From NCBI RefSeq assembly GCF_030053155.1, contig NZ_CP125640.1, positions 1,488,001 through 1,552,000 on the forward strand: a stretch of DNA of 64,000 nucleotides. Reading direction: 5' to 3'. Of the stretch, positions 11,224-64,000 are shown piece after piece. The stretch is from Rhizobium sp. BT03 (GTDB lineage: Bacteria > Pseudomonadota > Alphaproteobacteria > Rhizobiales > Rhizobiaceae). The notes beneath the pieces were generated by a model. The model was not told the DNA's origin and ran no database searches. It worked only from the letters and a program-made list of their open reading frames with translations. How positions within the stretch are numbered: position 1 is the stretch's first letter; every line of letters begins with the position of its first letter. Made by a program: the position numbers and the translations under genes.

Positions 11224-11659
11224 TGATATCTTCCAGCAATTGCGAGACTTCGCCGGTGACGCCCTGTTCGGGCTCGGCCTTGGCGCCGTATTTCTTCGGC
11301 CGCAGCTTCTCTGCGACCCATTGGCGGGTGGCGATGCGCAGCTGCGAGCGCCGGATCGCTTCGCCATTTTCCTGCCAGCCGGTGGTCTCGCCGGCCGCGT
11401 TCTTCTTCTCGATCCAGTCATTGCTGCGGTCGTCGGCAATCTCGACCAGCTCGTCGACGAAGCCGTCGGCGAGGATCTCGCGCGCCAGCGCATAGCGCGC
11501 CCGAAACGCCGCCTTGCCGTCGTCGGCAAGCCAGGAGAGCACCGTCGATTTCGCCGGCATATCCTCATCCCGGCAGATCGATCGCAGGCTTTCCCGGTCG
11601 GCAATACGATCGCAGATCTTCTCGGCCAGCGCCTGGGTGAACTTGGTCGGTCTGCCCAT
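11189..11659 (-). CDS. Phage terminase small subunit (Sf6-type)
   Basis: This 156-residue protein recognises viral DNA and loads the large subunit. It opens with MGRPTKFTQALAEKICDRI, and the helix-turn-helix region CRDEDMPAKSTVLSWL is typical of the Sf6-type small terminase. A central helical segment (YALAREILADGFVDELVEIAD) should form the ring. Its last 35 bases overlap the start of the large-subunit gene. Confidence 0.88.
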   Translation of the reverse strand: MGRPTKFTQALAEKICDRIADRESLRSICRDEDMPAKSTVLSWLADDGKAAFRARYALAREILADGFVDELVEIADDRSNDWIEKKNAAGETTGWQENGEAIRRSQLRIATRQWVAEKLRPKKYGAKAEPEQGVTGEVSQLLEDINGKTRGLPNGG

Positions 11660-11677
11660 GGGTCTGTTTCTGAAAGC

Positions 11678-11914
11678 TCAGAATAGCGCGATGATGTTGG
11701 ACGCCGTCGTCCCGGTCAGCGCTACGATCGCCGCATGCACCGGCAGGATCGTTCCGGCCGGCACGTTCCTGAAAATGACAGGATCCATATCCCGCCGCGG
11801 CGCAATCGCCACATCGCCCGCCGTGCCGATATAAAGCGCCCGCGCCCCGACGATCGCACTATCATTCGGGGTCACTACGGCGGCCCGCGAGGCCGGAGCA
11901 ATCGAAGGGTCCAT
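11678..11914 (-). CDS. Small phage spike-like protein
   Basis: A 78-residue all-beta protein starting at ATG 11914 with AAGGAG 9 bases upstream. It carries the pattern ARALYIGTAGDVAI followed by FRNVPAGTILPV and TGTTASNIIALF. This pattern is common in short phage proteins near structural genes and resembles the beta-sandwich base of a spike. It is the first gene of the late block and lies 18 bases before the small terminase gene. The function is inferred. Confidence 0.65.
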   Translation of the reverse strand: MDPSIAPASRAAVVTPNDSAIVGARALYIGTAGDVAIAPRRDMDPVIFRNVPAGTILPVHAAIVALTGTTASNIIALF

Positions 11915-13159
11915 GGCAGTTCTCCTTGTGAAGGGGTGGGCGTGCTGACACTGCCGCAGGGGCACGCTTAGCTGTTTGGCGAAAACCTCCCTCCACCCTC
12001 CGTCATCCCAGGCCTCGAGCCTGGGATCCATGCCCACGTCTGGCGGAGGCCAACGTGGATCCTCGGGTCAAGCCCGAGGAGGACGGAGCAAGGGGTGAGC
12101 GCTGTGCCAAACCCGCGGTGACGTTCGATGACGCTGGCCGGGGAGCCTCGGCGAATGCATGCGATCGAAGAGCAACACCGACTTGATCGTCGATCATTGC
12201 CTTCGGATTCAATATTCGCAGCTTGGATTTACGGTAGTGATAAATGATCCGCCGGGGGGGTGATCAAGGGCTGATGTGGGTTTTGTTAATTTGGAGCGCA
12301 CGCCAGAACGTCACCCACTGCTGCGGTGGTGGAGTTGGCGAAAACGCCACACCACCCTCCGTCCTCCTCGGCCTTGATGCCCGAGGATCCATCCCCGCTG
12401 CTGATGGAGGTCAACGTGGATCCTCGGGTCAAGCCCGAGGAAGACGGAGCAAGGGGTGAGCGCTGCGGCAAACCCGCGGTGGCGTTCGATGAACGCTGGC
12501 CGGCAAACCTTGGCGAATGATGCATGCGATCGAAGACGATGCCGCTCTTGACCGCCGACATCAGCTCCGGATTCAAATCTCGCAGCTTGGATTTACGGTA
12601 GGTTTAACTGATCCGCCAGGGGGTGATCAAGCGCTGACGTGGGTTAGCTTTGAAATCAAACTTGCCCGACCAATCGGCGGCAGAATGCCATCCGGCAAGT
12701 TTGGCAAATCGCGTTCCCCCACCCTCCGTCATCCTCGGCCTTGAGCCGAGGATCCATCCCCGCCGCTCGAGGGACGCATTCGGCGGCAAGAACGACACCG
12801 ATTTGATCGTCATTCGCTTAGGATTCAAATCTCGCAGCTTGGATTTGCGGTAGTCATAACTGACTTGCCGGGCGGTGATCAAGGACTGACGTGGCTTAGT
12901 TTTGAAATCAAATCTGCCCGACCAGCTGGCGGCAGAATGCCATCCGCTAGCCAGCAAGTGTGGCGAACGCGCTCCCCCACCCTCCGTCCTCCTCGGCCTT
13001 GATGCCCGAGGATCCATGCCCACTGCTGATGGAGGCCAATATGGATCTTCGGGGGAGGACGGAGCAGGAGGTGAGCTGCCGGCAGAACGCCTCCCACTTT
13101 GCCAGCCCTCAACTCCGGCGTACAAATAGCATTCTGTCGGTCAAACGATGGAGGCGTCA
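11915..13159. repeat. Three-unit degenerate direct repeat array with palindromic ends
   Basis: No supported gene is present. About 12.0-13.07 kb consists of three related units. Each has an inverted repeat built from a CTCCGTC box, a GGATCC box and a GTCAAGCCCGAGGA-like stem, then a spacer with the conserved string CGCAGCTTGGATTT (at about 12217, 12579 and 12833), then a TGATCAAG-GCTGA box. Units two and three also share GAATGCCATCCG. The palindromic part recurs singly at 14.07, 14.67, 19.32, 32.29, 33.60, 35.90, 54.02 and 54.39 kb. The array lies exactly at the border between phage and host-type genes. Confidence 0.75.
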
Positions 13160-14005
13160 GTGAAGCCCGCGAGACTTATTATTTGCCTTGCCGCCCTTCT
13201 CGGCATCACGCTTGCCGAAAACCCAGCCAATGCCGACGAATTGGTGCGGTTCGAAAGCGCTCCTGTCAAGCTCAGCGCCTTTCGAATTCGCAAGGCTGCG
13301 GAACAGGGAGAAATTCTCTCCCAACCGCCGGGCACGCCCTTGCTCGGATATTTGTCCCGCCCTGGCGGTAACGGTCCCTTCCCGGCGGTCGTCGTCATGC
13401 ATGGATGCGAGGGCATGCGTCCGAGCGTCAAGGACCTTTGGCCGAAACGGCTGGTCTCCTGGGGTTACGTCGTGCTTGTTGTCGACAGCTTCACCACCCG
13501 CAATATCAAAGACACATGCCGAAGCTCCCTTCCCGATCGCGTCTTCGACGCCTATGGCGCTTTGAATTTCCTAGCGAAATCGAGCTTTGTCGATATCAGG
13601 CGCGTCGCCCTGATCGGCTTTTCGACGGGCGGCACCGCGACGCTGGAGGCCACGAAAATCGAAGGGAACGAACAGCTGATGGAGCACAAATTCAAGGCGG
13701 CGGTCGCCTATTATCCGGCCTGTGGGGCAAGTCAGGGCAATGCGACGGTGCCGACCCTGATCTTAAGCGGCGACCGAGACAATTGGAGCCCGGTTGAACC
13801 ATGCCGGAAGAGGCTTGCCCGCCTTGGTGACGATGCCCCGCCAATCGAACTCAATCTCTACAAGGGTGTTTATCACAATTTCGATGCCCCGGAATTCACG
13901 GCGGGAAAAAGGGTGCTAGGTCATATCGAAAAATACAATCCGGACGCCGCGGCAAAGTCCATCCGCAGCGTTTACACGTTTCTTCGGACGTCCCTCTTGA
14001 AATAA
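13160..14005 (+). CDS. Exported dienelactone hydrolase family protein
   Basis: About 281 residues with an N-terminal signal peptide ending near ENPANADE, so the enzyme is probably periplasmic. The alpha/beta-hydrolase core shows the oxyanion strand VVVMHGCEGM, a nucleophile elbow GFSTGG, an acidic residue in LSGDRDNWSP and a histidine in YHNFD. Dienelactone hydrolases usually have Cys at the nucleophile; a Ser here points to a more general esterase, substrate unknown. GTG 13160 has GGAGG 5 bases upstream; the ATG at 13148 has no such site. Confidence 0.75.
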   Translation: MKPARLIICLAALLGITLAENPANADELVRFESAPVKLSAFRIRKAAEQGEILSQPPGTPLLGYLSRPGGNGPFPAVVVMHGCEGMRPSVKDLWPKRLVSWGYVVLVVDSFTTRNIKDTCRSSLPDRVFDAYGALNFLAKSSFVDIRRVALIGFSTGGTATLEATKIEGNEQLMEHKFKAAVAYYPACGASQGNATVPTLILSGDRDNWSPVEPCRKRLARLGDDAPPIELNLYKGVYHNFDAPEFTAGKRVLGHIEKYNPDAAAKSIRSVYTFLRTSLLK

Positions 14006-14118
14006 ATCTGCTTCGGCACGACGCTGCCATCCGCCAACAGCGAGTTTGGCACCAACACATCCCCAACCTCCGTCATTCCAGGCCTTGAGCCTGGAATCAA
14101 CGCCCGCCAGCGGAGGCA
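14006..14118. repeat. Single copy of the CTCCGTC/GGAATC palindromic repeat
   Basis: About 14064-14117 is a partial copy of the palindromic unit in the array at 12-13 kb, with the stem CCAGGCCTTGAGCCTGG. It lies between two convergent genes, where it could act as a shared transcription stop. Confidence 0.7.
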
Positions 14119-14583
14119 CTACCGCGAGAGCATCGCCTTCAGTCGCCGTTGCAAGGCAGGATGTTCGGCAGAGATGCGAACCTGGCTAAGCGCGTAACGC
14201 ATGGCGGGCGTGAACGGCAGCCAATGCTGCAGATGATTCAGCAGTTCATCCGACATCATGTCTTCAAGCGGGCCGGTGCCCAATTGACCGAGCGCCTCTT
14301 CGTGATCGGGCAATTTGGCTTGCTCGACAATGGCGAGAACCCGCTTCAACACCATCTCTTTCGGATCGTGAAGCAGGATCGTCGACCAATACCATGCGCC
14401 GGGATCCGCCAGATAGGCCTGGATATAGGCTTCAGCGGCAATCGATGGCTTTCCAAGGGCAACCATGTCAGGCAGCCAGGCAGGATCTGACGCGATGGCG
14501 CTGCGTGTGAAAACATGGGTTGGGGAAGTATCGGAGCTGCGGTGTCTCTTGTTCACTTCCGGGGCGATCCGCGTTGATGGCAA
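14119..14583 (-). CDS. Hypothetical protein, DUF6869-like
   Basis: A soluble 154-residue protein, mostly helical, with AEAYIQAYLADPGAWYW near the middle and the stretch GQLGTGPLEDMMSDE. The latter resembles the DUF6869 family, whose role is unknown; this match is from memory and is uncertain. The true start may be later than 14583. It is flanked on both sides by copies of the palindromic repeat. Confidence 0.5.
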   Translation of the reverse strand: MPSTRIAPEVNKRHRSSDTSPTHVFTRSAIASDPAWLPDMVALGKPSIAAEAYIQAYLADPGAWYWSTILLHDPKEMVLKRVLAIVEQAKLPDHEEALGQLGTGPLEDMMSDELLNHLQHWLPFTPAMRYALSQVRISAEHPALQRRLKAMLSR

Positions 14584-51700: not shown

Positions 51701-52110
51701 AGGTCGCGGCGATCGAGATGATCGGGCAGGATGCCGTATTTGATCGGCCCGAACAGCGCCGAGACGACGCCGAAGCCGAAGAGCGCTGCCATCAGCACGA
51801 AGATGGAGGAAAAGCCGAGGCCGACGACTGCAAGGGCGGCGATGGCGATCTCGCAGCGTTTCAAGAGTTCGGCGATCTTCGCCTTGTCGTGCTTGTCGGC
51901 GAGTTCGCCGCCGAGCGCCGAGAGCAGCAGGAAGGGGACGATGAGGATGACGCCGGCCAGCGTCACCAGGGCAGCCCCCTCGCTCGCCGACATCTTGAAC
52001 AGAATGAGGAACACCAGGGTGTTCTTCAGAAAATTGTCGTTGAAGGCCGTGAGGAACTGGGTCCAGAACAGCGGCGCGAATTTCCTTGATGTCATCAGAT
52101 TGTGTTGCAC
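48715..52110 (-). CDS. Acyl-ACP synthetase / lysophospholipid acyltransferase with MFS domain (Aas-type)
   Basis: About 1131 residues from GTG 52110, with AGAGGAAC 6 bases upstream. The order is an MFS transporter domain (residues 1-400), a PlsC acyltransferase with the H-x4-D motif NHVSLLDGAL, and an AMP-binding ligase with ILFTSGSEGTPKGV. Together they can flip a lysophospholipid, activate a fatty acid and re-acylate it at the inner membrane. The three-domain fusion is a known alphaproteobacterial variant of Aas/LplT. Confidence 0.85.
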   Translation of the reverse strand: MQHNLMTSRKFAPLFWTQFLTAFNDNFLKNTLVFLILFKMSASEGAALVTLAGVILIVPFLLLSALGGELADKHDKAKIAELLKRCEIAIAALAVVGLGFSSIFVLMAALFGFGVVSALFGPIKYGILPDHLDRRDLPKANAWIEGGTFIAILAGTIIAALAFSSGDNVLIFGTMMMGLSVLCWLASRMIPPTGSKAPDLEIDRNVIRSSYTLVMEIRADKRLWRSALMNCWFWLVGAFVLSILPTMVTELLGGSELVVPAYLTVFAIAVAVGSGIAAWMSSGRIVLLPAPVGTALLGLFSLDLAWNLWGLQSTTHATTILDFFAGQNTIRVAIDLAGMAIAGAFIAVPTFAALQTWAHEDRRARVIGAANVLSALFITVGLGLVAVIQALGASIPQILIGLGILNFAVAWLMLKTLPTNPFRDFISILFRAFMRLEVEGLENIKKAGRAPIIALNHVSLLDGALALAITEEEPTFAVDYKIAQAWWVRPFLKMCKFLPLDPTKPMATRSLIKVVQDGSPIGIFPEGRLTVTGTLMKVYDGAAMVADKTGSMVVPVKIDGLEKSYLSYLDNGKIRRRLFPKVKVTILEPVKLEVAPELKGRKRRTAAGAALYQVMSNLLFETADTSSTVLGRVIQAAQEFGMKKLAVEDPVTGSLTYGKLLTGAAVLGAKFRARFPEANIGVMLPNANGAAATILGVMSAGKVPAMLNFTAGAANILSACKAAEIKHVLTSRAFVAQAKLGPVIEELQKQVTIVWLDDLRAEVSFVDKIRGLLRKGRPLVKRQPDDPAVILFTSGSEGTPKGVVLSHRNILSNAAQAAARIDFHSGDKVFNILPVFHSFGLTAGTVLPLISGVPVYFYPSPLHYRIVPELIYVSNATIIFGTDTFLNGYSRTAHPYDFRSIRYIFSGAEPVKAATRQTYMEKFGLRILEGYGVTETAPVISINTPMYNKSGTVGKILPGMEWKLEPVPGIEEGGRLHVRGANVMAGYLRAEKPGVLEPLADGWHDTGDIVTIDEDGFVKIRGRAKRFAKIGGEMISLAAVETLAAELWPGSLSVVSSLPDPKKGERLVLLTDAPTATRAEFLAFAKSKGAMDMMVPAEVTIGKVPVLGSGKVDFVAARKLAESVAEKGEAA

Positions 52111-52203
52111 GGGCTCGTTCCTCTTTCGGCAGGTCGAGAAGGCCACAGAGTTGTTACCCATTGGTTGAATGCGGCAACAACTCTGCGCTGTGGTTAAGGA
52201 AGA

Positions 52204-52485
52204 TCAATCTTCATCGCTACGATTGAATTTGACGAGCAGTTTTTCCGTGCGGGCATCCTCGACCTTGCGGATCAGCTTCTCGGATTCGGCATTGTCGCGC
52301 AGCGTCTTGGTGATGTTCACCGTGGTCTGCACCAGCATCAGGATACCCATGGCGAGATAGCCTTTGCCCCAGAGATCGAGCGGCATCATGTAGAGGCCGA
52401 GCGCCAGCATGAAGGCGGCCGAGCCGAAGGAGATGTAGGAGAAGCTGACCCAGCTGGCGGAATGTTTCTGGAAACTGTCGTTCAT
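52204..52485 (-). CDS. YiaA/YiaB family inner membrane protein
   Basis: A 93-residue protein with two adjacent membrane helices (YISFGSAAFMLALGLYMMPL and YLAMGILMLVQTTVNITK), the YiaAB two-helix domain. The C-terminal tail is charged. It follows the PspA-like gene by 49 bases and probably shares its operon, in keeping with a membrane-stress role. Confidence 0.8.
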   Translation of the reverse strand: MNDSFQKHSASWVSFSYISFGSAAFMLALGLYMMPLDLWGKGYLAMGILMLVQTTVNITKTLRDNAESEKLIRKVEDARTEKLLVKFNRSDED

Positions 52486-52534
52486 ATCAGTGGTCCCTAT
52501 GGTTCGATGGATGGATGGTTGGATGGATGCAATT

Positions 52535-53221
52535 TCAAGCAGCAGGCGTGATGCGGCTCTTCAGCCGCGCCAGCACATCATCGGCGGATGAGCGCAGCGG
52601 CGCCCCGCAGCCGGCATTGGCAAGCTTTTCGATGATGCCGGCCGGGCGGATGGCGCCTTCCATGTCCTTCAGGGCGGCCGCGGTCAGCTCGTTCTGGCTC
52701 TGGCGCAGGCGAAGCCGGGCCAGGGTCTCCTCGGCATCGTCGAGCGTCGCAAGGCCTGGACCGGCCACGACGACATCGAGCTTCTGCGCCTCCTGCGTGG
52801 CGCGGGCCAGCCGCTCGCCGCGCTGCAGTTCCTGCAGCCGCGCCTCGGAAGCACGGACGATCGCCTTCAGCTTGTCGATTGAGGTGGTGAACTGGGCTTG
52901 CGCCTTCTCGGATGCATCGCGCTCGGCCTCGAGATAGGCGATCGCCTCGGCCGCCTCGCGGGCCAGGGCCTCATTGCCCTTCGCCAGTGCAGCGGAGGCG
53001 CGGTTTTCCAGATCGGCGATGCGGGCGACGATTGCTGCGTGCTGCACCCTCTCCTGCTCGTTCTGGGCGATGGCGACGGCGACGCTGCGGCGGGCCGACT
53101 GGATCGATTGGGCGGCATCGCGGATCTGCTGGGCAAGCAGCGGCACGGCGTGGCGATCGGCAAAAGCCTGTTCGGCATCATGCGCCCTGCCCCGCAACAA
53201 AATGGAAATCAGTTTGAACAT
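52535..53221 (-). CDS. PspA/IM30 family protein
   Basis: A 228-residue, almost fully helical coiled-coil protein (VPLLAQQIRDAAQSIQSARR, then LENRASAALAKGNEALAREA), typical of the PspA/IM30 membrane-repair family. GGAGGAAGG lies upstream. It is the first gene of a pair with a YiaA-like membrane protein and faces a TetR-type gene across three operators, rather than the sigma54 and PspF control found in enterobacteria. Confidence 0.8.
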   Translation of the reverse strand: MFKLISILLRGRAHDAEQAFADRHAVPLLAQQIRDAAQSIQSARRSVAVAIAQNEQERVQHAAIVARIADLENRASAALAKGNEALAREAAEAIAYLEAERDASEKAQAQFTTSIDKLKAIVRASEARLQELQRGERLARATQEAQKLDVVVAGPGLATLDDAEETLARLRLRQSQNELTAAALKDMEGAIRPAGIIEKLANAGCGAPLRSSADDVLARLKSRITPAA

Positions 53222-53238
53222 TTCCTTCCTCCGGTTTA

Positions 53239-53310
53239 TGAACGTTGTTCACGAGAGGTGTTATGCCAGAATCATGAACGACGTTCAAGATAAATTTTGA
53301 ACGTCGTTCA
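53239..53310. promoter_or_regulatory. Three TetR-type operators
   Basis: Three 13-base palindromes of the form TGAACG-N-CGTTCA or TGAAC-N3-GTTCA lie at 53239-53251, 53275-53287 and 53298-53310, centres 36 and 23 bases apart. They fill the space between the divergent pspA-like and TetR genes, so one regulator likely controls both. Confidence 0.8.
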
Positions 53311-53332
53311 AAAAATCGAAGTGGAATGGTTA

Positions 53333-53950
53333 ATGGCCGGTAGGCGAGAAGAAAAACGCGAAGACCTGAAGGCGCGGCTGATCGAGGCGGCGCGCGAGCG
53401 GATCGCCCGCGACGGGCTGACGAACCTTAGAGCCCGCGACATCACCCAGGATGCCGGCTGCGCGCTCGGCGGCCTCTACACGGTCTTTTCAGACCTCGCC
53501 GAGCTCGTCATCCACGTCAACTCCGCCACACTGAAGGCGCTGGAGGCGAGGCTCACCCTGCCCGAGGCCAAAGACCGGCCGCCGACCGACCGGCTGCGCA
53601 ACCTGGCGCAGGGATATCTCAGCTTCGCCGTCGAGCACCGGAACCTCTGGAAGGCGCTGTTCGACCACTTCCCCCCCGACACCAGCCCGACGCCGCAATG
53701 GCATCTTGACGAGCACCTCTTCCTGATGGACGTGATCGCCGAACCGTTGGCCGAACTGCAGCCCGACATGCCCCCCGAAGACCGGGCGATCCGCGCCCGC
53801 ACGCTGTTCGGCGCTGTGCATGGGGTGGTCAGCATCAGCCTGGAAGGCCGCTTCGTCGGCCTGCCGCTGGAGCGGCTGGCACGGGAGGTGGATGAGCTGG
53901 TGCAGACGATTGCGGCGGGGGCGGAGCGGCGGAGGGAAGCGGGCGTGTGA
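53333..53950 (+). CDS. TetR family regulator of the PspA/YiaA pair
   Basis: A 205-residue protein from ATG 53333; an in-frame start at 53297 would begin inside the third operator. The TetR helix-turn-helix is EAARERIARDGLTNLRARDI, then QDAGCALGGLYTVFSDLAEL. The C-terminal domain (LWKALFDHFPPDTSP) matches a TetR_C_33-like WHG domain. It is likely to repress its own gene and the divergent pspA-like gene. Confidence 0.85.
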   Translation: MAGRREEKREDLKARLIEAARERIARDGLTNLRARDITQDAGCALGGLYTVFSDLAELVIHVNSATLKALEARLTLPEAKDRPPTDRLRNLAQGYLSFAVEHRNLWKALFDHFPPDTSPTPQWHLDEHLFLMDVIAEPLAELQPDMPPEDRAIRARTLFGAVHGVVSISLEGRFVGLPLERLAREVDELVQTIAAGAERRREAGV

Positions 53951-54463
53951 GTGCAGCTGTTGGTCGGCGAGAGGCGGGCGTGTGAGCGTCTGGCGGGTGG
54001 GTTTGGCAGCAACGCCCCCCACCCTCCGTCGTCCTCGAGCTTGACCCGAGGACCCATGCCGGCTGCTGATGGAACTCCGCCCAAAACTGCCCCTCACCCT
54101 AACCCTCTCCCCGTAAACGGGGCGAGGGGACGTGCCCCGCGAGACGTCGGCGGGGGGACAGAGAGGCCGCGGCATATCCGCAAGCGGGGAGAAGGTGGCG
54201 GCAGCCGGATGAGGGGCTGGCCCGCCCAGAAGCAACTCGACGACGCTTGTCTATCAAAAAAGGCCGATCTTGAAAGACAAACTATTTTGGGTGTGGCTCG
54301 TGAGAGTCAACGTGGCTTGAGATCCAGAATTCGAGATTTTTGAGAGTCAACGAGATCCCGCCGCCTGCCAATCCCCCTCCCCATCTCCGTCGTCCTCGGG
54401 CTTGACCGGAGGACCCACACCCAAGCACTCTGCCCCACCACGTCGCACGCGAAAGGAAACCCC
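53951..54463. repeat. RIME-like and CTCCGTC repeats
   Basis: A copy of the CTCCGTC unit (about 54018-54068), a full RIME-like composite (54089-54217) and a short second CTCCGTC unit (about 54386-54420) fill the gap. No gene is seen. Around 54301-54352 a short GAGAGTCAACG string occurs twice in direct repeat. Confidence 0.7.
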
Positions 54464-55243
54464 ATGAGCCGCATCTTCATCACCGGTTCCACCGATGGCC
54501 TCGGGCTCGCCGCCGCCCGCACCCTCATCAGCCAAGGCCACGACGTCGTCCTCCACGCCCGCTCCCGCGAGCGCGCCGCCGCCATCGCAGAGACATCAGC
54601 CGCCGCCCTCGGCCTCGTCATCGGCGATCTCGCCAGCGCCGCCGAGACGCGTTCCATCGCCGAACAGGTCAACGCCATCGGCCGCATGGACGCCGTCATC
54701 CACAATGCCGGCATCTACCTCGAACGCAGCCGCGGCGAAACGCCTGAAGGTCACGCCAAGACGCTGGCGGTCAACGTGCTCGCCCCCTATCTCCTCACCG
54801 CCTGGATCACCCGCCCCGATCGCCTGATCTATCTTTCGAGCGGCATGCACCGCAGCGGCGGCAGCAGCCTCGACGATATCGACTGGAAGCGGCGGCCATG
54901 GAACGCCAGCCAGGCTTATTCCGAAAGCAAACTCTACATCGCCACCCTTTCCGCCGCCCTCGCTCGCCACTGGCCGGATGTCTTCAGCAACGCCGTCGAC
55001 CCCGGCTGGGTGCCGACCAAGATGGGCGGCGCCGGCGCGCCTGACGATCTGGAGATGGGGCATCTCACGCAGACGTGGCTGGCGACGAGTGATGATGGCG
55101 CGGCGAAGGTGAGCGGCGGGTATTGGTATCATCGGCAGCGGCGCGAGGCGGCGGCGGAGGTGGGTGATGTGGGGTTTCAGGAGGCGCTGGTGGAGAGGCT
55201 TGGGGAGTTGACGGGGGTGCGGTTGTTTGGGGAGCGAGCGTGA
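54464..55243 (+). CDS. SDR family protein
   Basis: A 259-residue protein. It has the cofactor motif TGSTDGLGLA, a HNAG motif, a Ser in YLSSGMHRSG and the Tyr/Lys pair in YSESKLY, as in classical SDRs. The C-terminal part has an Ala/Arg-rich tail. It most resembles the retinol-dehydrogenase-like SDR group; substrate unknown. It ends about 100 bases before the defence operon. Confidence 0.85.
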   Translation: MSRIFITGSTDGLGLAAARTLISQGHDVVLHARSRERAAAIAETSAAALGLVIGDLASAAETRSIAEQVNAIGRMDAVIHNAGIYLERSRGETPEGHAKTLAVNVLAPYLLTAWITRPDRLIYLSSGMHRSGGSSLDDIDWKRRPWNASQAYSESKLYIATLSAALARHWPDVFSNAVDPGWVPTKMGGAGAPDDLEMGHLTQTWLATSDDGAAKVSGGYWYHRQRREAAAEVGDVGFQEALVERLGELTGVRLFGERA

Positions 55244-55348
55244 CGAGCAAGGAATAATGCGCTTGCCGATAGCAGAATGTTGCGACTTCGCCCACTACCC
55301 TCAAAGCACTCTTTGATCTATTCAACTGGAAGGTGATTCAGCATACAG

Positions 55349-57904
55349 GTGAGACGATTGTCTTTACGCAAGGAAGCAACGGCCAGGATCAAAATCAATC
55401 GGTTCCTAGAGGCGGCCGGCTGGCGCTTCTTCGATGACAACAACGGACCCGCGAACGTCGTTCTTGAGCCGAACGTCAAGCTGAAGCCTGAGCACATCGA
55501 AAGCCTCGGCGCGGACTTTGAAAAAAGCACCAAAGGGTTCATCGATTTCCTGTTGCTGGACAAGGACGGCAAGCCGCTGATCGTCCTTGAAGCGAAATCG
55601 GAAGATAAAGATCCCCGGATCGGCAAGGAGCAGGCGCGCAAGTATGCCCGCTCTCAGAATGCACGCTTCGTCATCTTGAGTAACGGAAACATCCATTACC
55701 TTTGGGACCTTGAGCAGGGCAATCCGACGGTCATCACTGCCTTCCCAGGCCCCGATGAAATCAAGAACCACTACGCGTTCGAGCCGAACGCTGAGCGTCT
55801 CTTTGCAGAAAAAGTTGAGCGCGACTTTATCGTTCTGACCCAGATGCCTGGTTATGCAAGCGAGGGGGCCTGGAAGAACGAGGCAGAGCGCGACGCATTC
55901 GTCGAGAAGCAAAAGCTGCGCTTCCTCCGCCCCTACCAGGAACGGGCGATCCAGGAAATTCAGAAGAGCGCCAAGAAGGGCGCGACACGGTTTCTGTTCG
56001 AGATGGCGACAGGGACGGGGAAAACTCTGACGTCCGCTGCGGTCATCAAGCTTTTCCTCAAGACGCGAAACGCGAAACGCGTTCTTTTTCTCGTCGATCG
56101 ACTGGAGCTGGAAACCCAGGCGGACAAAGCTTTCAAAGCCTATCTGAAGAACGATTTCACTTCGATAATCTATAAAGAGCAGCGCGATGACTGGCGAAAG
56201 GCGGATATCGTTGTCACGACTGTGCAGAGCCTGCTGTTCAACGACAAATACCGCCGCCTGTTTTCGCCGACGGATTTCGATCTCGTCATCTCGGACGAAG
56301 CGCATCGCTCGATCGGCGGAAACGCCCGCGCGGTGTTCGAATACTTCATCGGCTACAAGCTCGGCCTGACAGCCACGCCAAAGGACTATCTGAAGCAGTC
56401 CAAGAAGGCGAAACCCACCGAACGTGATCCGCGAGAAGCCGAACGTCGCATGATGCTCGACACCTACCGCACGTTTGGCTGCGAGTCGGGCGATCCGACT
56501 TTCCGCTATTCTCTCCTGGACGGCGTGCGGGAAGGGTTTCTGATCAATCCCTACGTCATCGACGCCCGAACGGGTGTCACAACCAAGCTGTTGTCAGACG
56601 AAGGCTTCACAATCGAAACGACGGCAGAAGACGGCACTGAGATCAAGGAAGCCTTCGGCGGCCGCGATTTCGAGAAACGCTTCTTCGCCGAAGCGACCAA
56701 CCAGGCCTTCTGTCGAGCGCTTCTGGAAAATGGCATGCGAGATCCGATCTCCGGCGAGTTCGGCAAGACGATTGCCTTCGCTGTCAGCCAGAACCATGCC
56801 CTCAAAATCACGGAAACCCTGAACGAACTGGCCGATCAGTTGTGGCCGGGGCGATACCAGTCTGATTTCGCGATGCAGGTGACAAGCGACGTGCCGGCCT
56901 CGCAGCAGATGACCATCAACTTCGCAAACAACAATCTCGGCGGGCGCAGCGGATTTGTCGAAAATTACCGCACCAGCAAGGCCCGAATTTGCGTCACAGT
57001 CGGCATGATGACGACAGGCTATGACTGCCCCGACATTCTGAACCTTGCCCTCATGCGGCCAATCTTCTCGCCATCGGATTTCGTCCAGATGAAGGGGCGC
57101 GGAACACGAAAGCACAATTTTGCGGAAGAGCTCTTCGATCCCGCCACGAAGGCAGCGCTTGGGGATGTCCAAAAGGCTTCCTACCGCCTGTTCGACTTCT
57201 TCGCCAACTGCGAGTTCTTCGAAGAAGAGTTCGACTACGACCAGGCGTTGGCTTTGCCAAAGCCTGCCGCCATGCCGCTATCCAATGGTGGCGACGATGG
57301 TTCGACGATCGTCACGAAACCTGCCATCTACGAGTTTTTGGAACCCGATCAGGTCGTCTACCAGGTTGAAGAGCAGATCGGCTTGGAGGGTATGCGGATC
57401 GACCGTGAGCTGTTCCAGAAATTCGAGGAAACTGCACGGTCTGATCCCAAACTTGCCGAACTGGTCGAACAGCGGGACTGGGATGCGGCCACACGCCACG
57501 TCGTCGAAGAGCTATTCGACAAGCCGAGCGAGTTTTTCAGTCTGGAGAAGCTGCGCCGCGCCGCAGGCGTCGATCGCCGTATATCGGTGCGGGAACTGGT
57601 GGAAAAAGCCTTCGGCTTCATTTCGAAGCTCAAGAACAAGGATGAATTGATCGACGACGAATTTCAGAAATTCCTGATCGATCAGAAACCTGAGGAAGCC
57701 GACCGTATCCGCGAAATACGCTACTTCTTTGAAGCCTATATCCGCGACGCCAAGGTTCGGGCGCTGATTGACGCTGGCCATCTCGCGGACCTCAACGTAA
57801 ACCCGTCCTTCTCAATGCGCGATCTTAAGGAAGTGCCCGCTCCGTGGCGCAAGCGCATCCCGGAATACATCAAGGACTACGTGTCCCTGAACCCTTTTAT
57901 GTGA
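55349..57904 (+). CDS. hsdR: Type I restriction endonuclease subunit R
   Basis: An 851-residue protein that cleaves DNA after translocation. The N-terminal PD-(D/E)xK nuclease has Asp 66 (FIDFLLLDKDG), Glu 81-x-Lys 83 (VLEAKSED) and a Q-x3-Y motif (EQARKYA). Walker A MATGTGKT is at 219-226 and the DEAH box at 316-319. A helicase C-terminal domain and a C-terminal helical region follow. The GTG start lacks a strong ribosome site. The length is typical of EcoEI-type HsdR. Confidence 0.9.
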   Translation: MRRLSLRKEATARIKINRFLEAAGWRFFDDNNGPANVVLEPNVKLKPEHIESLGADFEKSTKGFIDFLLLDKDGKPLIVLEAKSEDKDPRIGKEQARKYARSQNARFVILSNGNIHYLWDLEQGNPTVITAFPGPDEIKNHYAFEPNAERLFAEKVERDFIVLTQMPGYASEGAWKNEAERDAFVEKQKLRFLRPYQERAIQEIQKSAKKGATRFLFEMATGTGKTLTSAAVIKLFLKTRNAKRVLFLVDRLELETQADKAFKAYLKNDFTSIIYKEQRDDWRKADIVVTTVQSLLFNDKYRRLFSPTDFDLVISDEAHRSIGGNARAVFEYFIGYKLGLTATPKDYLKQSKKAKPTERDPREAERRMMLDTYRTFGCESGDPTFRYSLLDGVREGFLINPYVIDARTGVTTKLLSDEGFTIETTAEDGTEIKEAFGGRDFEKRFFAEATNQAFCRALLENGMRDPISGEFGKTIAFAVSQNHALKITETLNELADQLWPGRYQSDFAMQVTSDVPASQQMTINFANNNLGGRSGFVENYRTSKARICVTVGMMTTGYDCPDILNLALMRPIFSPSDFVQMKGRGTRKHNFAEELFDPATKAALGDVQKASYRLFDFFANCEFFEEEFDYDQALALPKPAAMPLSNGGDDGSTIVTKPAIYEFLEPDQVVYQVEEQIGLEGMRIDRELFQKFEETARSDPKLAELVEQRDWDAATRHVVEELFDKPSEFFSLEKLRRAAGVDRRISVRELVEKAFGFISKLKNKDELIDDEFQKFLIDQKPEEADRIREIRYFFEAYIRDAKVRALIDAGHLADLNVNPSFSMRDLKEVPAPWRKRIPEYIKDYVSLNPFM

Positions 57905-57916
57905 TGAAAGCCCGAA

Positions 57917-60529
57917 ATGCTCGATACAGATACCAAGCGCCGCATCGACACTTGCCGTGACATTCTCGTGGGCAAGGTGCCGGATCCGAAAAGCCAAGTG
58001 GAGCAGATCACCATCGCGCTGATCTACAAGTTCATGGATGACATGGATCTTGAGGCCGAGGAATTGGGCGGTGAGCGTCGGTTCTTCACCAAGGACTACG
58101 AGCGTTATCGCTGGGCGAAACTGGTGGCCCCCGGCGTGTCTGGGCAGGACATGCTCAACACCTATTCGGAAGCGCTGACAAACATGGTGCAGAACGAGGG
58201 GCTGCCCAAGCTCTTTCGTGACATTTTCCGCAACGCCTATCTGCCCTATCGCGATCCGGAAACGCTGCGAGCATTCCTCCGTGAGATAAACAGCTTCACC
58301 TACGACCACAGCGAGAAGCTCGGGGATGCTTTCGAGTACCTGTTGTCCGTTTTGGGCAGCCAGGGGGACGCAGGCCAGTTCCGCACACCCCGCCACATCA
58401 TCGATTTCATGGTCGAGATCATCAACCCGCAGAAAAACGATGTCATCATGGACCCGGCCTGCGGCACGGCGGGCTTTCTGATTTCGGCCTACAAGCACAT
58501 TCTGAAGCAGAACTCGACCGACGTGGTGAACGGCAATGGCGCCAGCACTGAGGGTGACGCCGCCGAGCAGGCGTTGGAAAGCCCGATGCGTTATCCCGGC
58601 GACCTGTTGCAACCCGATGATCGCGTTCGCCTCGCCCGCAACATCCGGGGCTATGACATCTCGCCCGACATGGTGCGCCTATCGTTGGTGAACCTTTACC
58701 TGCATGGCTTCGTAGATCCGAAGGTCGAGGAATACGATACGCTAACGAGTGAAGACAAATGGACCGAAACGGCCGATGTCATCCTTGCCAATCCGCCCTT
58801 CATGTCGCCAAAGGGCGGGATCAAGCCGCACACACGATTTCAGGTACAATCCAAGCGGAGCGAAGTGCTGTTTGTCGATTTCATCGCCGAACATCTTACG
58901 CCAAACGGTCGTGCCGCCATCGTCGTGCCCGAGGGGATCATCTTTCAAAGCCAAAGCGCCTATGTCGCCCTGCGCAAGATGCTGGTGGAAAACCACCTTG
59001 CCGCCGTCATCTCGCTGCCCGCTGGCGTGTTCAATCCTTATTCGGGTGTGAAGACCTCGATCCTGATTCTTGATCGCGCGGTGGCCAAGGCGAGCCAGCA
59101 CGTCGCTTTCTTCAAGATCGAGAATGACGGCTTCGCCCTTGGCGCACAGCGCAAGGCGGTGAAGGGGTCGCAACTGGCACAGGTGAAGGCCGAGCTTGGA
59201 GCTTGGTTGCTAGCGGCGCGGACTGGTGGCGGTGAAGGGCTGGAAAGCAGCCTTGGCAGCGCAGTGGAGCGGGCACGGCTGGCTGAGGGCGGGGATTACA
59301 ACCTTAGCGCCGAACGCTTTCGAACTGCCGAGGCAGGTCAGCTTTCGGGATGGCCGACAGCAAAGCTCGGCGAGCTTTGTGAATTCCGCACCGGTGGCAC
59401 ACCTACTTCAACCATCCCAGAATATTACACGGACGGCCAAGTGCCTTGGCTAGTATCCGGCGACATTCACAAGCGCGAAATCCATGACTGCGAAAAGCGC
59501 ATCACCCAAGCAGGTGTTGACAACTCTAACGCTCGCCGCCTTCGGCGCAACTCGGTTCTTATCGCACTCAACGGGCAAGGAAAAACACGGGCGACCGTTG
59601 CGCTTCTGCGAATGGACGGCGCGACGTGCAACCAGTCTCTTGTCGCAATGTATCCCCTCGTCGAAGATCGCCTGATCCCTGAGTTCCTTTTCTGGACACT
59701 CCGTTCGAAGTATCAGGAAATCCGGGACATCACCGGGGACAATCAGCGAAGCGGTCTGAATATTCCCATTCTCAAAGACATCGAAATCCCCCTCCCGCCG
59801 CTTGAGGTGCAGCGCGAGATTGTGGCCGAGGTCGAGGGCTATCAGCGCGTCATCGACGGTGCCCGCGCCGTCCTAGATAACTACCGCCCCCACATAACTG
59901 TTGATCCTAAGTGGCCAACGCCAACGTTTGCAGACGCCCCCCTAGAAATCATCGATGGTGATCGGGGTGCAAATTACCCTTCAAAGGAAGATTTTACTCC
60001 AACGGGGCACTGCCTCTTCTTGAGCACCGCAAACGTTCGATCAGATGGTTTCTTGTTCGAACGTCTCGAGTTTATTTCCGAAGAGAAAGATGCGGCGCTT
60101 CGGAAGGGAAAACTGGCTCGGGGGGATGTAGTCCTTACAACAAGGGGAACAATTGGAAACACTGGGCTCTTTGACAATTCCGTGCCCTATGATCACGTTC
60201 GCATCAATTCTGGAATGCTTATTTTCCGTCCAGAAAAGGAAAAGCTGGAAAGTGGTTATCTCCTGGCTTTCTTCCAATCCGAGAACTTTGTGGCGCAGCG
60301 GGAAGTGGTGGCGTCCGGTTCTGCCCAGCCTCAACTTCCAATACGAAGCCTAAACACCATAAGGCTTCCGCTCCCGCCAATTGAGGTTCAAAGGGCTATC
60401 GTCGCGGACATTGAAGCAGAGCAAGCACTCGTCGAGTGTAACCGTGACTTGATCGCGCGCTTCGAGAAAAAGATCGAAGCCGCCATCGCCCGTGTCTGGG
60501 GCGAGGCCAAGCGTGAGGCCGCCGCATGA
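57917..60529 (+). CDS. Fused type I methyltransferase and specificity subunit (HsdM-HsdS)
   Basis: An 870-residue protein. The HsdM part (1-470) has an N-terminal helical domain, the SAM motif DPACGTAGF (179-187) and the catalytic NPPF (292-295). The HsdS part has two target recognition domains (about 479-630 and 680-840), each closed by a conserved helix (LPPLEVQREIVAEVEGYQRV; LPPIEVQRAIVADIEAEQAL). Normally M and S are separate chains in a 2:1 ratio, so the fusion implies a different subunit arrangement. Confidence 0.88.
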   Translation: MLDTDTKRRIDTCRDILVGKVPDPKSQVEQITIALIYKFMDDMDLEAEELGGERRFFTKDYERYRWAKLVAPGVSGQDMLNTYSEALTNMVQNEGLPKLFRDIFRNAYLPYRDPETLRAFLREINSFTYDHSEKLGDAFEYLLSVLGSQGDAGQFRTPRHIIDFMVEIINPQKNDVIMDPACGTAGFLISAYKHILKQNSTDVVNGNGASTEGDAAEQALESPMRYPGDLLQPDDRVRLARNIRGYDISPDMVRLSLVNLYLHGFVDPKVEEYDTLTSEDKWTETADVILANPPFMSPKGGIKPHTRFQVQSKRSEVLFVDFIAEHLTPNGRAAIVVPEGIIFQSQSAYVALRKMLVENHLAAVISLPAGVFNPYSGVKTSILILDRAVAKASQHVAFFKIENDGFALGAQRKAVKGSQLAQVKAELGAWLLAARTGGGEGLESSLGSAVERARLAEGGDYNLSAERFRTAEAGQLSGWPTAKLGELCEFRTGGTPTSTIPEYYTDGQVPWLVSGDIHKREIHDCEKRITQAGVDNSNARRLRRNSVLIALNGQGKTRATVALLRMDGATCNQSLVAMYPLVEDRLIPEFLFWTLRSKYQEIRDITGDNQRSGLNIPILKDIEIPLPPLEVQREIVAEVEGYQRVIDGARAVLDNYRPHITVDPKWPTPTFADAPLEIIDGDRGANYPSKEDFTPTGHCLFLSTANVRSDGFLFERLEFISEEKDAALRKGKLARGDVVLTTRGTIGNTGLFDNSVPYDHVRINSGMLIFRPEKEKLESGYLLAFFQSENFVAQREVVASGSAQPQLPIRSLNTIRLPLPPIEVQRAIVADIEAEQALVECNRDLIARFEKKIEAAIARVWGEAKREAAA

Positions 60530-61272
60530 TCGAAGAGGCCACCCGGCTGGAAACCTATCTGCCGCTTTCATATCGCACGACGAAGGAGCGCGACTATATC
60601 CGTTTCCTCTGGGAGGCTTTCGACACCAATGTCGAGCATGGCAAGTACCAGTTTGCCTTTCTCGCTTACCACATGCTGGTGATGAGCTTCGTCTACTTCA
60701 ACATTTGGCAGATCAGGCTGATCCGCCCTGGTCCCTTTGAGACGGCTATGGTCGGGTTTAACAAGGACGTTGAAAAGGACCTGATGAATGCGACTTCGCC
60801 CTTCGTGTTCAGCGCGGTCAACGAGCGGTCGGTGCTGCGATTCCTGAAACTGATCCAGTGCGACAACGCCAAGATCGGCACCTATGCCAAGCTGGTGGAC
60901 GAACGCAATGACACCGCCCACGCCAACGGCAATATCTTCTTCAACTCGGAAGATGAACTCGCCCGCAAGGTTCGCGATGTGCTTCGTACCGTCGAGGAGA
61001 TCCAGCGTCACAGCGCACCGGCTATTGGGGAAGGCTACAAAGCCTTCCTGCTCGCCTCGCAAGACCCCGAGGAGCGGGAGTACACAGACGACGCCCAGCA
61101 GATTGAAGAGGTCTTGGTGAAGGAGTTCTACATGTCAGCCAGTGACATAGCTTTTTGCCGCGACTACGACATAGGGAGGCTGGCTGATGAACCCGGTTTC
61201 GCCGCGATCCAGACGCTACACCAGAAGCTCGGCGAGCTGTACCCGTCAGAAGAGGAGGTAGAGGCCGCATGA
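60526..61272 (+). CDS. HEPN-like protein in the restriction operon
   Basis: A 248-residue protein that overlaps the previous stop by ATGA and the next start by ATGA. A helical core has the motif RNDTAH (Arg 127 to His 132), an R-x4-H spacing that in HEPN ribonucleases forms the active site. The following segment (LRTVEEIQRHSAPAIG) is helical too. No nucleotidyltransferase is adjacent, so it would not be a classic MNT-HEPN pair. RNase activity is predicted, not shown. Confidence 0.65.
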   Translation: MIEEATRLETYLPLSYRTTKERDYIRFLWEAFDTNVEHGKYQFAFLAYHMLVMSFVYFNIWQIRLIRPGPFETAMVGFNKDVEKDLMNATSPFVFSAVNERSVLRFLKLIQCDNAKIGTYAKLVDERNDTAHANGNIFFNSEDELARKVRDVLRTVEEIQRHSAPAIGEGYKAFLLASQDPEEREYTDDAQQIEEVLVKEFYMSASDIAFCRDYDIGRLADEPGFAAIQTLHQKLGELYPSEEEVEAA

Positions 61273-62327
61273 GCTCGCTCTACTCCATCGTTGACGGCAA
61301 ATTGAAGCCAGCGACGCGCCGGGCCTTGATGAAGGAAAGTCTGATCGAGGAATGGGTTGCGGGCGATCCGTCGCTGCTCGGCCTGGACGCCATGGTCATC
61401 GGCCGGCAGGTGCCGACGGACCACGGCAAATTCATCGACCTGCTGGCGCTGGACGCCTCGGGGGCTCTGATCATCATCGAACTGAAGAAGGACCGCACGC
61501 CGCGCGAAATCGTGGCGCAGGTGCTTGATTACGCGTCCTGGGTTCGAACTTTGACGACGCCTCAGATTTACGAACGAGCCGAACGATATCTCCAGACCCG
61601 CCTGGTGACCGCATTCCGTGAAAAGTTCGGCGAAGCCATCCCCGAACAGCTCAATGGCAGCCACTCCATGCTGATCGTGGCCAGCGAACTCGATCCGGCG
61701 TCCCGGCGAATTGTCGAGTATCTGTCAGAAGAGCATGGCGTTGCCATCAACACTGTGTTTTTCAACGTCTTCGAGGCCAACGGCCAGGAATGGCTGACGA
61801 CGGATTTCCTGCTCGATCAGGAAGAGGTGGAAGAACGTTCCGAACGAAAGGTCCGCCCGCCGTGGTCCGGCTATTATTTCGTCAATGCCGGCCTCGGTGA
61901 ACACCGCTCATGGACCGATATGAAGCGCTACGGCTTCGTGAGCGCCGGCGGCGGCGAATTCTACACCAAACGCCTGGAGCAACTCGCCGTTGGCGACGAG
62001 ATATTCGTGTACGACAAGGGCAAGGGCTATATCGGCTACGGGACGGTCACCAGCGAAGCCCAGCTTGCCTCTGACTTTATGACTCCAGACGGGCTACTCT
62101 TCGAGCAACCGCTTGCCGAACCTCGAATGAAGCGGATCGGCGAACCCGTTGACCGGGCGGAATATGTCGTTGGCGTAGAATGGCGCAAGACGGTAGAGCC
62201 GTCCCAAGCCAAATGGTTCAAGGGCGCCTTCGCAAACCAGAACATCGTCTGCAAGCTGCGCGACCAAGCGACCGTCGATTTTCTCATCGCGGAATTCAAA
62301 GACATTGATGGTTACGATCGGCTTTAG
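61269..62327 (+). CDS. NucS-like PD-(D/E)xK nuclease with PUA/EVE-like C-terminal region
   Basis: A 352-residue protein. The N-terminal nuclease core has Asp 57 (GKFIDLLALD), Glu 71-x-Lys 73 (IIELKKDR) and Q-x3-Y (QVLDYASW), as in NucS/RecB-like enzymes. The C-terminal half, after WSGYYFVNAGLGEHRSW, has the pattern QLAVGDEIFVYDKGKGYIGY, which resembles a PUA/EVE-type fold that reads modified bases. It could sense or cut modified invader DNA; this is inferred. Confidence 0.7.
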   Translation: MSSLYSIVDGKLKPATRRALMKESLIEEWVAGDPSLLGLDAMVIGRQVPTDHGKFIDLLALDASGALIIIELKKDRTPREIVAQVLDYASWVRTLTTPQIYERAERYLQTRLVTAFREKFGEAIPEQLNGSHSMLIVASELDPASRRIVEYLSEEHGVAINTVFFNVFEANGQEWLTTDFLLDQEEVEERSERKVRPPWSGYYFVNAGLGEHRSWTDMKRYGFVSAGGGEFYTKRLEQLAVGDEIFVYDKGKGYIGYGTVTSEAQLASDFMTPDGLLFEQPLAEPRMKRIGEPVDRAEYVVGVEWRKTVEPSQAKWFKGAFANQNIVCKLRDQATVDFLIAEFKDIDGYDRL

Positions 62328-62336
62328 AGGCTGCAT

Positions 62337-62918
62337 ATGGATATCTCAGAACCCGCCGCATCCGCCGACGCCCTGGAAGCGGAAACAGAGCACTCAGCCT
62401 TCGGTGATTGGCTTCGCGCTCAAATTGATAAGAAAGGTCTCTCCATCGCCGTATTGGCGGAGAAGACCGGGATCACCTACACCGGGATATGGAATATCGT
62501 TAAAGGGAATACGGTTTCGCCCCGCAAGGAAACGCGTGATAAGTTGGCGGCCGCAATCAACGAACTTATCCCGCCCGCGATTGAAGCTGAAATTGCCAGT
62601 CAAGCAATGCCGCTGCCGGGATTTGAATGGGTAGACTTTACACCTACCGACCTGGAGACCGTTCCACAGGCAAGTGGTGTGTACGTATTCTACGACATCA
62701 CAGACCGTCCAGTATACGTGGGCAAGTCGAGCAAAAATGTCCGGCTTCGAGTGAAAGATCACCAGACAAGGTTCTGGTTTAAATCGCCGCTGGTAGTGCG
62801 AGGCTCATTTCTGGCCATTCCTGATCCCAAGCTTTGTCTGGAAATTGAAACCATCTTGATAAAGTTTTTGGGCAAGCATGCCCTGCTGAATTCCAAAGGA
62901 GTCGTGCGCGACGAGTAA
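62337..62918 (+). CDS. XRE helix-turn-helix fused to GIY-YIG nuclease
   Basis: A 193-residue protein with GAGG before the ATG. Residues 25-75 form an XRE DNA-binding domain (GLSIAVLAEKTGITYTGIWN). Residues 110-190 form a GIY-YIG nuclease: GVYVFYD and VYVGKSS for the two strands, Arg 136 or 138 (VRLRVKDH), a Glu (EIETIL, about 169-171) and Asn (LLNSK). The DNA-binding domain may direct the nuclease or control the operon. I know no named family with this fusion. Confidence 0.7.
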   Translation: MDISEPAASADALEAETEHSAFGDWLRAQIDKKGLSIAVLAEKTGITYTGIWNIVKGNTVSPRKETRDKLAAAINELIPPAIEAEIASQAMPLPGFEWVDFTPTDLETVPQASGVYVFYDITDRPVYVGKSSKNVRLRVKDHQTRFWFKSPLVVRGSFLAIPDPKLCLEIETILIKFLGKHALLNSKGVVRDE

Positions 62919-62994
62919 GCGCATGCCTTCGCGCATCCCAAGTACGCCGAGGGCTAGATGGAGGGTGCACCTCTTATCGCGAGGGTGAATGGAC

Positions 62995-63069
62995 TGGCTG
63001 GGGCGCCTGGATTCGAACCAGGGGATGGCGGTACCAAAAACCGCTGCCTTACCGCTTGGCTACGCCCCA
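62995..63069 (-). tRNA. tRNA-Gln (TTG)
   Basis: A 75-base cloverleaf with an encoded CCA end. The acceptor stem is TGGGGCG/CGCCCCA. The anticodon loop on the minus strand gives TTG. The T-arm is CCTGGTTCGAATCCAGG. Position next to the defence island makes it a candidate integration site. Confidence 0.92.
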
Positions 63070-63198
63070 CCAGAGCTTTCGGCGCTAAGCGCCGGCTCAA
63101 ATCGACGCCTGATTAGCAAAGCTCTCCGTCTGTCACAATGACTAAGTTGCGCATGCCGCAGATTTATGCGCTGCAGAGTGCCAAGGGCCGTGCTAGGA

Positions 63199-64000
63199 AT
63201 GGGCGACGTCATCGGCCGCGAGATCATCGCCCACATGCAAAGCCCCGCATTCGACCTTGCTTTCGAGCCGGCCTATGGGCGGGCCGTGCCGGTGGTTTCA
63301 GGGGTCGAGCGGGTCACGGCGGAGAATCCCGGGCCTTTCACCTTTTACGGCACCAACAGCTATATCGTCGGCGCCTCCTCGGTCGCGGTCATCGATCCCG
63401 GGCCGGAGGACGAGGCGCATTTTCAGGCGCTGATGGCGGCGCTCGCCGGCCGCGCGGTGACGCATATCTTCGTCAGCCACACGCATCGCGACCACTCTCC
63501 GCTGGCCGGCCGGCTGCAGGCGGCAACGGGGGCGGTGACGGTGGGCCAGGGGCGGCATCGGCCGGCGCGGCCGCTGAGGGATGGCGAGATCAATCCCTTT
63601 GCCGAAAGCTCGGATATATCCTTCGTGCCCGACATAACGATCGGTGACGGCGAGAGCCTATCGGGCGATGGCTGGGCGCTGAGCGCAGTGCTGACGCCGG
63701 GGCACACGGCCAATCATGCCGCCTTCGCGCTCGAGGGCCGCGACATCCTGTTCTCGGGCGATCACGTCATGGCCTGGTCGACCTCGATCGTCGCGCCGCC
63801 GGATGGCTCGATGGCCGATTACATGGCCTCGCTCGCGCGGCTGATGGCGCGCGGCGACGGCCTGCTGCTGCCCGGCCATGGCGGGCCGGTCACCGAGCCC
63901 GCCGCCTTCCTGCAGAGCCTGAAGGCGCATCGGCTCAGGCGCGAGCGGGCGATCCTCGCGCGCATCCGGGCGGGCGACCGCGCGATAACAGAGATGGTGA
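63199..64000 (+). CDS. MBL-fold metallohydrolase, C-terminus outside the window
   Basis: An unfinished frame of 267 residues, open to the window edge. The metallo-beta-lactamase fold is shown by SHTHRDHSPLAG (the H-x-H-x-D-H metal site), TPGHTANHAAF, FSGDHVMAW and LPGHGGP. The start at ATG 63199 is plausible (MGDVIGREIIAHMQ); a later Met is possible. It resembles the glyoxalase II-like / RNase-like proteins of unknown substrate. The tRNA-Gln gene lies upstream. Confidence 0.8.
   Translation, partial: MGDVIGREIIAHMQSPAFDLAFEPAYGRAVPVVSGVERVTAENPGPFTFYGTNSYIVGASSVAVIDPGPEDEAHFQALMAALAGRAVTHIFVSHTHRDHSPLAGRLQAATGAVTVGQGRHRPARPLRDGEINPFAESSDISFVPDITIGDGESLSGDGWALSAVLTPGHTANHAAFALEGRDILFSGDHVMAWSTSIVAPPDGSMADYMASLARLMARGDGLLLPGHGGPVTEPAAFLQSLKAHRLRRERAILARIRAGDRAITEMV

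Follow-up and report, generated by a model that had tools for sequence, protein, structure and literature searches.

Near the 3' end of a 64,000 nucleotide stretch of Rhizobium sp. BT03 DNA (contig NZ_CP125640.1, positions 1,488,001 to 1,552,000; hereafter the window) lies a segment of five genes that encode the type I restriction subunit HsdR, a fusion of the methyltransferase and specificity subunits (HsdMS), a HEPN protein, a NucS/EndoMS-like nuclease with an EVE/YTH-like domain that corresponds to the PADLOC candidate PDC-S11, and an XRE-type helix-turn-helix (HTH) protein fused to a GIY-YIG nuclease. Judged by sequence comparison, the HEPN protein behaves as a standing partner of the restriction system, PDC-S11 is an optional add-on and the XRE/GIY-YIG gene is probably a passenger. 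The segment as a whole is best explained as a layered anti-phage operon, a reading in which confidence is evenly divided.

The partnership rests on the genomic surroundings of the HEPN gene. A scan of the contigs of one genome per species with a HEPN alignment yielded 52 loci from many phyla; it recovers only relatives with conserved peptides, and the genomic contexts of 2698 related proteins fall outside this count. In 51 of the 52 loci the upstream DNA encodes an hsdMS relative on the same strand, and the lone exception (L026) sits at a contig end with 8 bases of upstream DNA, which upholds the claim of an earlier note on this DNA that HEPN is coupled to the restriction system. HsdR relatives are found upstream in 45 of the 52. 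The HEPN gene follows hsdMS at a distance of at most 150 bases in 33 of the 51 loci and is 1.0–3.1 kb away in the other 18. In the open reading frame (ORF) calls, which include loci found through HsdR, hsdMS is the preceding plus strand ORF for 38 HEPN genes, and in 14 cases the two overlap by 4 bases. A Paracoccus plasmid carries hsdR-hsdMS-HEPN without the PDC-S11 and GIY-YIG genes. The recurrence in 51 of 52 loci exceeds chance linkage.

Sequence identities indicate that HEPN tracks the core of the enzyme rather than its DNA target. Five loci (L002, L003, L004, L006 and L105) carry a HEPN protein that is 88–90% identical to that of the window, and their HsdM part is 86–94% identical to it, while both target recognition domains (TRD1 and TRD2) reach only 22–39%; some of the five have one TRD in common at 80–87%. 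Across all pairs of nine relatives the HsdM part is 83–94% identical while the TRDs differ. Among 38 loci and the window, pairwise identities correlate at 0.60 for HsdR-HEPN, 0.59 for HsdM-HEPN and 0.92 for HsdR-HsdM, each higher than in all 2000 permutations. HEPN is thus inherited with the system, yet seems to be swapped more often than HsdM.

The arginine and histidine of the HEPN motif, R127-x4-H132, are unchanged in 30 of 30 aligned sequences and agree with the R-x4-6-H pattern of the family, and the predicted structure is consistent with the HEPN helical fold, with no Foldseek match of the model at E <= 0.001. The Pfam family RiboL-PSP-HEPN (PF18735) scores 18.4 bits, below its gathering cut-off of 28.4, and a relative (P0102) carries a precomputed PF18735 assignment. 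Nothing in NCBIfam matches the protein at E <= 1, and its best PADLOC match does not surpass E 0.014; one relative in UniRef is named MAE-28990/MAE-18760-like.

It is proposed that the type I enzyme, as its family suggests, methylates the host DNA and cuts unmethylated DNA, and that HEPN is an RNase which the restriction complex would keep inactive until it is itself inhibited or overwhelmed. The freed HEPN might then shut down translation or the infected cell, by analogy with PrrC and EcoprrI. The linkage and the conservation of the active site are observed and the fold is predicted; the RNase activity, its trigger and its target are inferred as the most likely reading. PDC-S11, whose architecture is likewise predicted, would read a modified base through its EVE/YTH-like domain and cut with its NucS-like nuclease, and could in this way cover phages whose modified genomes evade type I restriction. 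The XRE/GIY-YIG gene is carried on the same segment and probably acts separately.

Several observations weigh against this reading. Among 23 loci of the same branch that were found through HsdR and read, three (L102, L116 and L117) are cut off; of the 20 with a readable 3' side just 11 hold a HEPN gene (L054, L088, L089, L103, L105, L106, L109, L110, L113, L118 and L119), and eight of these HEPN proteins show only 27–47% identity. The restriction enzyme can therefore dispense with HEPN, given that nine of the 20 lack it; L107 and L108 are apparently one element. The HEPN allele is also exchangeable, most clearly between L004 and L088, which share HsdR at 96% but HEPN at 47%, and correlations of 0.60 for HsdR-HEPN against 0.92 for HsdR-HsdM do not fit a tightly co-adapted complex. 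Furthermore, HEPN is found here without the ABC-ATPase part that PrrC has, and three of the four viewed plasmid contexts of PDC-S11 relatives are devoid of hsd genes.

These last contexts lend themselves to a possible, if doubtful, alternative in which HEPN, PDC-S11 and GIY-YIG each act as a single-gene defence of their own, with a transcript and an insertion hotspot in common with the restriction system but no interaction with it. GIY-YIG relatives do occur in the L090 region, which has no match to the hsdR or hsdMS of the window, and in one plasmid stretch without annotated hsd genes, many unrelated defence genes occupy the same slots, and the nine HEPN-less systems point in the same direction. 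A freely moving gene should appear alone, however, and among the conserved-peptide relatives there is no solitary HEPN, all 51 loci with readable upstream DNA holding hsdMS; for HEPN this counts against the alternative. A rather unlikely extension of the partnership, put forward tentatively, is that the branch is an effector platform, with a conserved hsdR-hsdMS core as DNA sensor and guard, the HEPN RNase as the usual effector and adjoining slots that exchange effectors, all controlled by that one restriction complex (PDC-S11, PDC-S02, PDC-S06, PDC-S21, SIR2-HerA and putAbiC, with TrlF/Ppl or a DS8-like protein replacing HEPN). CBASS is a system with which this may be compared, as its effectors too get swapped.

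The restriction complex may instead be the trigger itself, so that HEPN would be switched on when HsdRMS meets or stalls on unmethylated DNA and restriction and abortive infection would act together. The linkage of HEPN with the core and not with the TRDs would suit such a trigger, as would the other effectors in the same place, TrlF/Ppl in L095 and the DS8-like protein in L114, but no sensor-effector contact is known and the absence of HEPN from nine of the 20 systems of the branch speaks against it; it is considered distinctly improbable. Slightly less probable still is that HEPN is not toxic and instead tunes the expression or assembly of hsd, as a regulator or by binding RNA: there are HEPN proteins considered to lack catalysis, MtlR among them, and 3c8g has been placed under MtlR (PMC3710099), and two fold matches of the present protein are MtlR-type chains, but the invariance of R-x4-H argues against this role.

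The layered operon has published precedents. The idea that HEPN proteins associated with restriction systems provide a multi-pronged response modelled on PrrC was proposed in 2013 by Anantharaman et al., whose restriction-linked HEPN families carry the same functional proposal (PMC3710099). The suggestion in the earlier note of a second line when restriction fails is thus not new, being the PrrC model. PrrC with EcoprrI (type Ic) is alike in that the hsd locus of a type I system includes a gene of HEPN type, which serves as a second line when restriction is blocked (PMC3710099, PMC12707154). Unlike PrrC, the present HEPN is a stand-alone 248-aa protein that lacks the ABC-ATPase half and whose gene comes after a fused hsdMS, and its membership of the PrrC family was rejected as it has no ATPase match at E <= 1. 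The hsdR-hsdMS-HEPN arrangement is not described in the parts of the 2013 study that were consulted, and its figures or supplements may hold it (PMC3710099).

Other known systems resemble parts of the segment. The modification-dependent nuclease VcaM4I (EVE-HNH) also joins an EVE-type reader to a nuclease (PMC7897488), whereas PDC-S11 has its reader at the C-terminus and a NucS-like PD-(D/E)xK nuclease rather than an HNH enzyme. TgvAB, a type IV system on VPI-2 of V. cholerae, is similar in that restriction of modified DNA is embedded in a type I operon, but it consists of GmrSD-type proteins and thus of different genes, and the consulted portion of its description mentions no HEPN (PMC11411939). 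In the RptR-RMS-DarTG-M48 island of E. coli a toxin system likewise lies inside a type I operon, with DarTG in place of HEPN and a repressor of its own (PMC12255303). EVE proteins have been found beside type I operons (PMC7641849).

The literature searched contained nothing that links TrlF with restriction and phage, or Ppl, HEPN and a type I accessory gene, nor a name for the triad of hsdR, hsdMS and HEPN with exchangeable neighbours. The concept is already published and the conserved triad with its exchangeable neighbours is the addition. Should the partnership of HEPN prove genuine, a built-in RNA-cutting backup would exist in a widespread branch of what is the oldest bacterial immune system known, one that would escape the catalogues searched (NCBIfam, PADLOC and Pfam). 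The system would then allow a simple test of how restriction failure is sensed in cases other than PrrC, and further candidate effectors can be drawn from the slots around it.

The layout of the segment is given in Table 1. Re-reading of the ORFs bore out the five genes with their extents, overlaps and gaps, and the family calls of the earlier note, including the PUA/EVE-like region, agree with Pfam, PADLOC and the predicted structures; family motifs were found in all five proteins. The spacings in order are 12, -4, -4 and 9 bases, and because the genes are co-directional and overlapping a single transcript is suggested. A simple scan for promoters and terminators (55200–63100) gave no promoter-like site on the plus strand and two plus strand terminator-like sites, one within hsdR and one within hsdMS; the totals of 2 promoter-like and 7 terminator-like sites are below the shuffle means of 3.1 and 8.8. 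The next feature after the GIY-YIG gene is tRNA-Gln on the opposite strand.

Table 1. Features of the five-gene segment and its border (window coordinates)
Feature	Position	Strand	Basis or remark
hsdR (type I restriction subunit, 851 aa, PD-ExK nuclease + SF2 translocase)	55349..57904	+	Pfam, PADLOC, motifs
hsdMS (fused N6-adenine methyltransferase + specificity subunit, two TRDs, 870 aa)	57917..60529	+	Pfam, motifs
HEPN protein, 248 aa, R127-x4-H132	60526..61272	+	4-base overlap with hsdMS
PDC-S11, NucS/EndoMS-like PD-(D/E)xK nuclease + EVE/YTH-like domain, 352 aa	61269..62327	+	4-base overlap with HEPN
XRE-type HTH + GIY-YIG nuclease, 193 aa, probably independent passenger	62337..62918	+	Pfam sub-threshold, motifs, GC
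Acquired segment, full extent	55237..62990		blastn against same-genus regions
tRNA-Gln(ttg) at insertion hotspot border	62995..63069	-	ARAGORN

The core has the components of a type I restriction-modification enzyme, namely HsdR, HsdM and an HsdS with two TRDs, with M and S in one chain, and by its family it is predicted to methylate the host DNA and to cut DNA that lacks this methylation. HsdR matches Pfam ResIII (8.7e-40) and HSDR_N (4.3e-07) as well as PADLOC REase_I (1e-57), and contains a Walker A motif, DEAH and a D...ExK stretch at the N-terminus. HsdMS matches N6_Mtase (1.3e-46) and, in two stretches, Methylase_S, and its HsdM part carries the motifs DPACG and NPPF. Two other assignments were rejected: an HsdR of EcoAI/FtnUII type (NF046051; 219.1 bits against a curated cut-off of 550) and the MADS defence system (100.8 and 56.3 bits against the NCBIfam cut-offs of 720 for MAD2 and 400 for MAD5). 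HsdR relatives at 60–80% identity occur in 56 plasmid records, 52 of them from E. coli; the contexts viewed were those of L095 and the Paracoccus plasmid.

PDC-S11 was recognised by its PADLOC profile over residues 8–344 (417.2 bits, E 1.3e-125); its position after HEPN is what the present analysis adds. The predicted model (pLDDT 80.8, pTM 0.51) comprises a NucS/EndoMS-like nuclease (residues 22–167), with the motif D57...E71-L-K73, and a domain of EVE/PUA-type fold similar to EVE/YTH (200–348); the Pfam family for NucS/EndoMS (PF01939) stays under its gathering cut-off of 24. This fold similarity supports, as a prediction from the model, a role of the protein as a reader of modified DNA. The further idea that it belongs to the operon is supported in that its gene directly follows HEPN in four of the 52 loci (L002, L006, L007 and L048) and again in L106. 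The junction with HEPN is a 4-base overlap in L002, L006, L007 and L106 and a 5-base gap in L048. Relatives at 37–39% lie further from HEPN in L012 and L022, that of L106 is 84% identical, that of L089 is cut by the contig end, and the match in L088 covers 38 residues only. Relatives are present in 42 plasmid records; of the four contexts viewed, the one with hsd genes (Kocuria) places the relative beside a divergent type I operon. PADLOC obtained its PDC candidates through guilt-by-embedding, and most have yet to be tested (PMC12988326, PMC10855318). In a panel of 100 P. aeruginosa strains PDC-S11 was present in 10, and 90% of these 10 were phage-resistant, a correlation only (PMC10855318).

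The XRE/GIY-YIG protein falls narrowly below the Pfam gathering cut-offs for both of its domains (GIY-YIG 2.5e-4, 21.7 against 22.6 bits; HTH_3 3.1e-4). Its GIY-YIG motif begins at residue 114, and G114-Y116, the Y127-G129 stretch, R138, E171 and N185 are invariant in 20 sequences, the last three of which correspond to the catalytic residues of the family. The gene has a GC content of 0.519 against 0.557–0.583 in the other four. No relative was detected in the other 53 loci, L002–L054 (tblastn, E 1e-4), and with the own genome counted one was found in 1 of 148 genomes of the genus and 2 of 247 of the family at E 1e-10, and in 1 of 397 of the order at the stricter E 1e-30; none was found among viral contigs. 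L090, from another genus, encodes a relative at 42% identity and has no match to the hsdR or hsdMS of the window within 18 kb, and the stretch viewed around a relative at 62% identity, carried by a Methylobacterium plasmid, has no annotated hsd gene. The gene was therefore rejected as a core part, being absent from L002–L054 and rare in the sampled genomes, and the earlier claim that it is a fixed part of the operon is not supported, the only carrier among the 148 genus genomes being the present one. Of the five-gene order proposed there, the HEPN position recurs and the full order is found in no other readable locus. Two coincidences count against the rejection: the longest contigs of P0002 (HEPN) and P0128 (GIY) are equally long (37859), as are those of P0241 (PDC) and P0136 (GIY) (229308), and close GIY-YIG relatives may thus sit with HEPN or PDC-S11 elsewhere.

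In 18 loci hsdMS and HEPN are separated by further DNA, and 15 of these show plus strand ORFs there; L028, L034 and L043 fall outside this picture as their HEPN was missed in ORF picking, and the cargo of L047 lies outside the scan. The occupants include PDC-S06 (L010), PDC-S21/DUF4917 (L021), PDC-S02/Mrr (L029), SIR2 (L038), HerA (L052), putAbiC (L023) and a Ppl-like ATPase (L014). The slot genes of L019 and L031 encode an AAA_13 domain and are similar to that of L010; L032 resembles L029, L051 resembles L021 and the first gene of L052 resembles L038. Slot ORFs of L025 and L030 have no Pfam or PADLOC match and that of L050 has no Pfam match. A KilA-N protein is encoded between hsdR and hsdMS in L025, which was scanned, and similar ORFs lie there in L030, L047, L050, L052 and L053 (173–281 aa).

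HEPN's own place can be taken by other genes. L095 (E. coli plasmid pL37-4, NZ_CP034592.1, 8987–16535) has an hsdR 63% identical to that of the window and a fused hsdMS, followed by a TrlF/Ppl-family ATPase in the place of HEPN. In L114 this place is held by the DS8-like protein, which scores just below its cut-off. DUF6602 proteins are encoded beside this restriction branch in L054 (9949–10665), L104 (9064–9744) and L112 (15001–15960), in the latter two in the place of HEPN. In L015 a gene for a 1214-aa helicase (AAA_30, UvrD_C_2; 10744–14388) begins within a dozen bases after HEPN.

The segment, about 7.8 kb long, has been inserted at a hotspot between an SDR gene and tRNA-Gln, as seen by blastn of window positions 52001–64000 against 13 regions from other genomes of the genus. 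Both flanks are matched in 10 of the 13, the left match ending at about 55236 (55196–55251) and the right one resuming at 62983–62995; L083 and L093 match on the tRNA side only, and L094 on the tRNA side and in two short upstream pieces. Positions 62950–63500 are matched at least partly in 148 of 148 genus genomes, in many of which the listed part lies beyond the tRNA. The five genes have a GC content of 0.519–0.583, against 0.677 and 0.691 in the neighbouring genes. From the flank comparison and the lower GC content it follows that the spot is variable and that its cargo here is exactly the five genes. The idea that the segment was inserted by its own integrase was rejected, as no flanking direct repeat of the tRNA end is among the repeats listed and none of the five genes encodes an integrase. 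Within the genus, the insertions between the SDR gene (54464–55243) and tRNA-Gln vary, as L079–L087, L091 and L092 show. Just 0.25 and 0.6 kb separate the flanks in L079 and L080, and the other eight two-flank regions hold 1.9–7.9 kb of different DNA. The cargo of these eight filled regions gave one match to the five proteins of the window, in L087, where a different type I system occupies the same spot with 29% identity to the HsdR and HsdM of the window.
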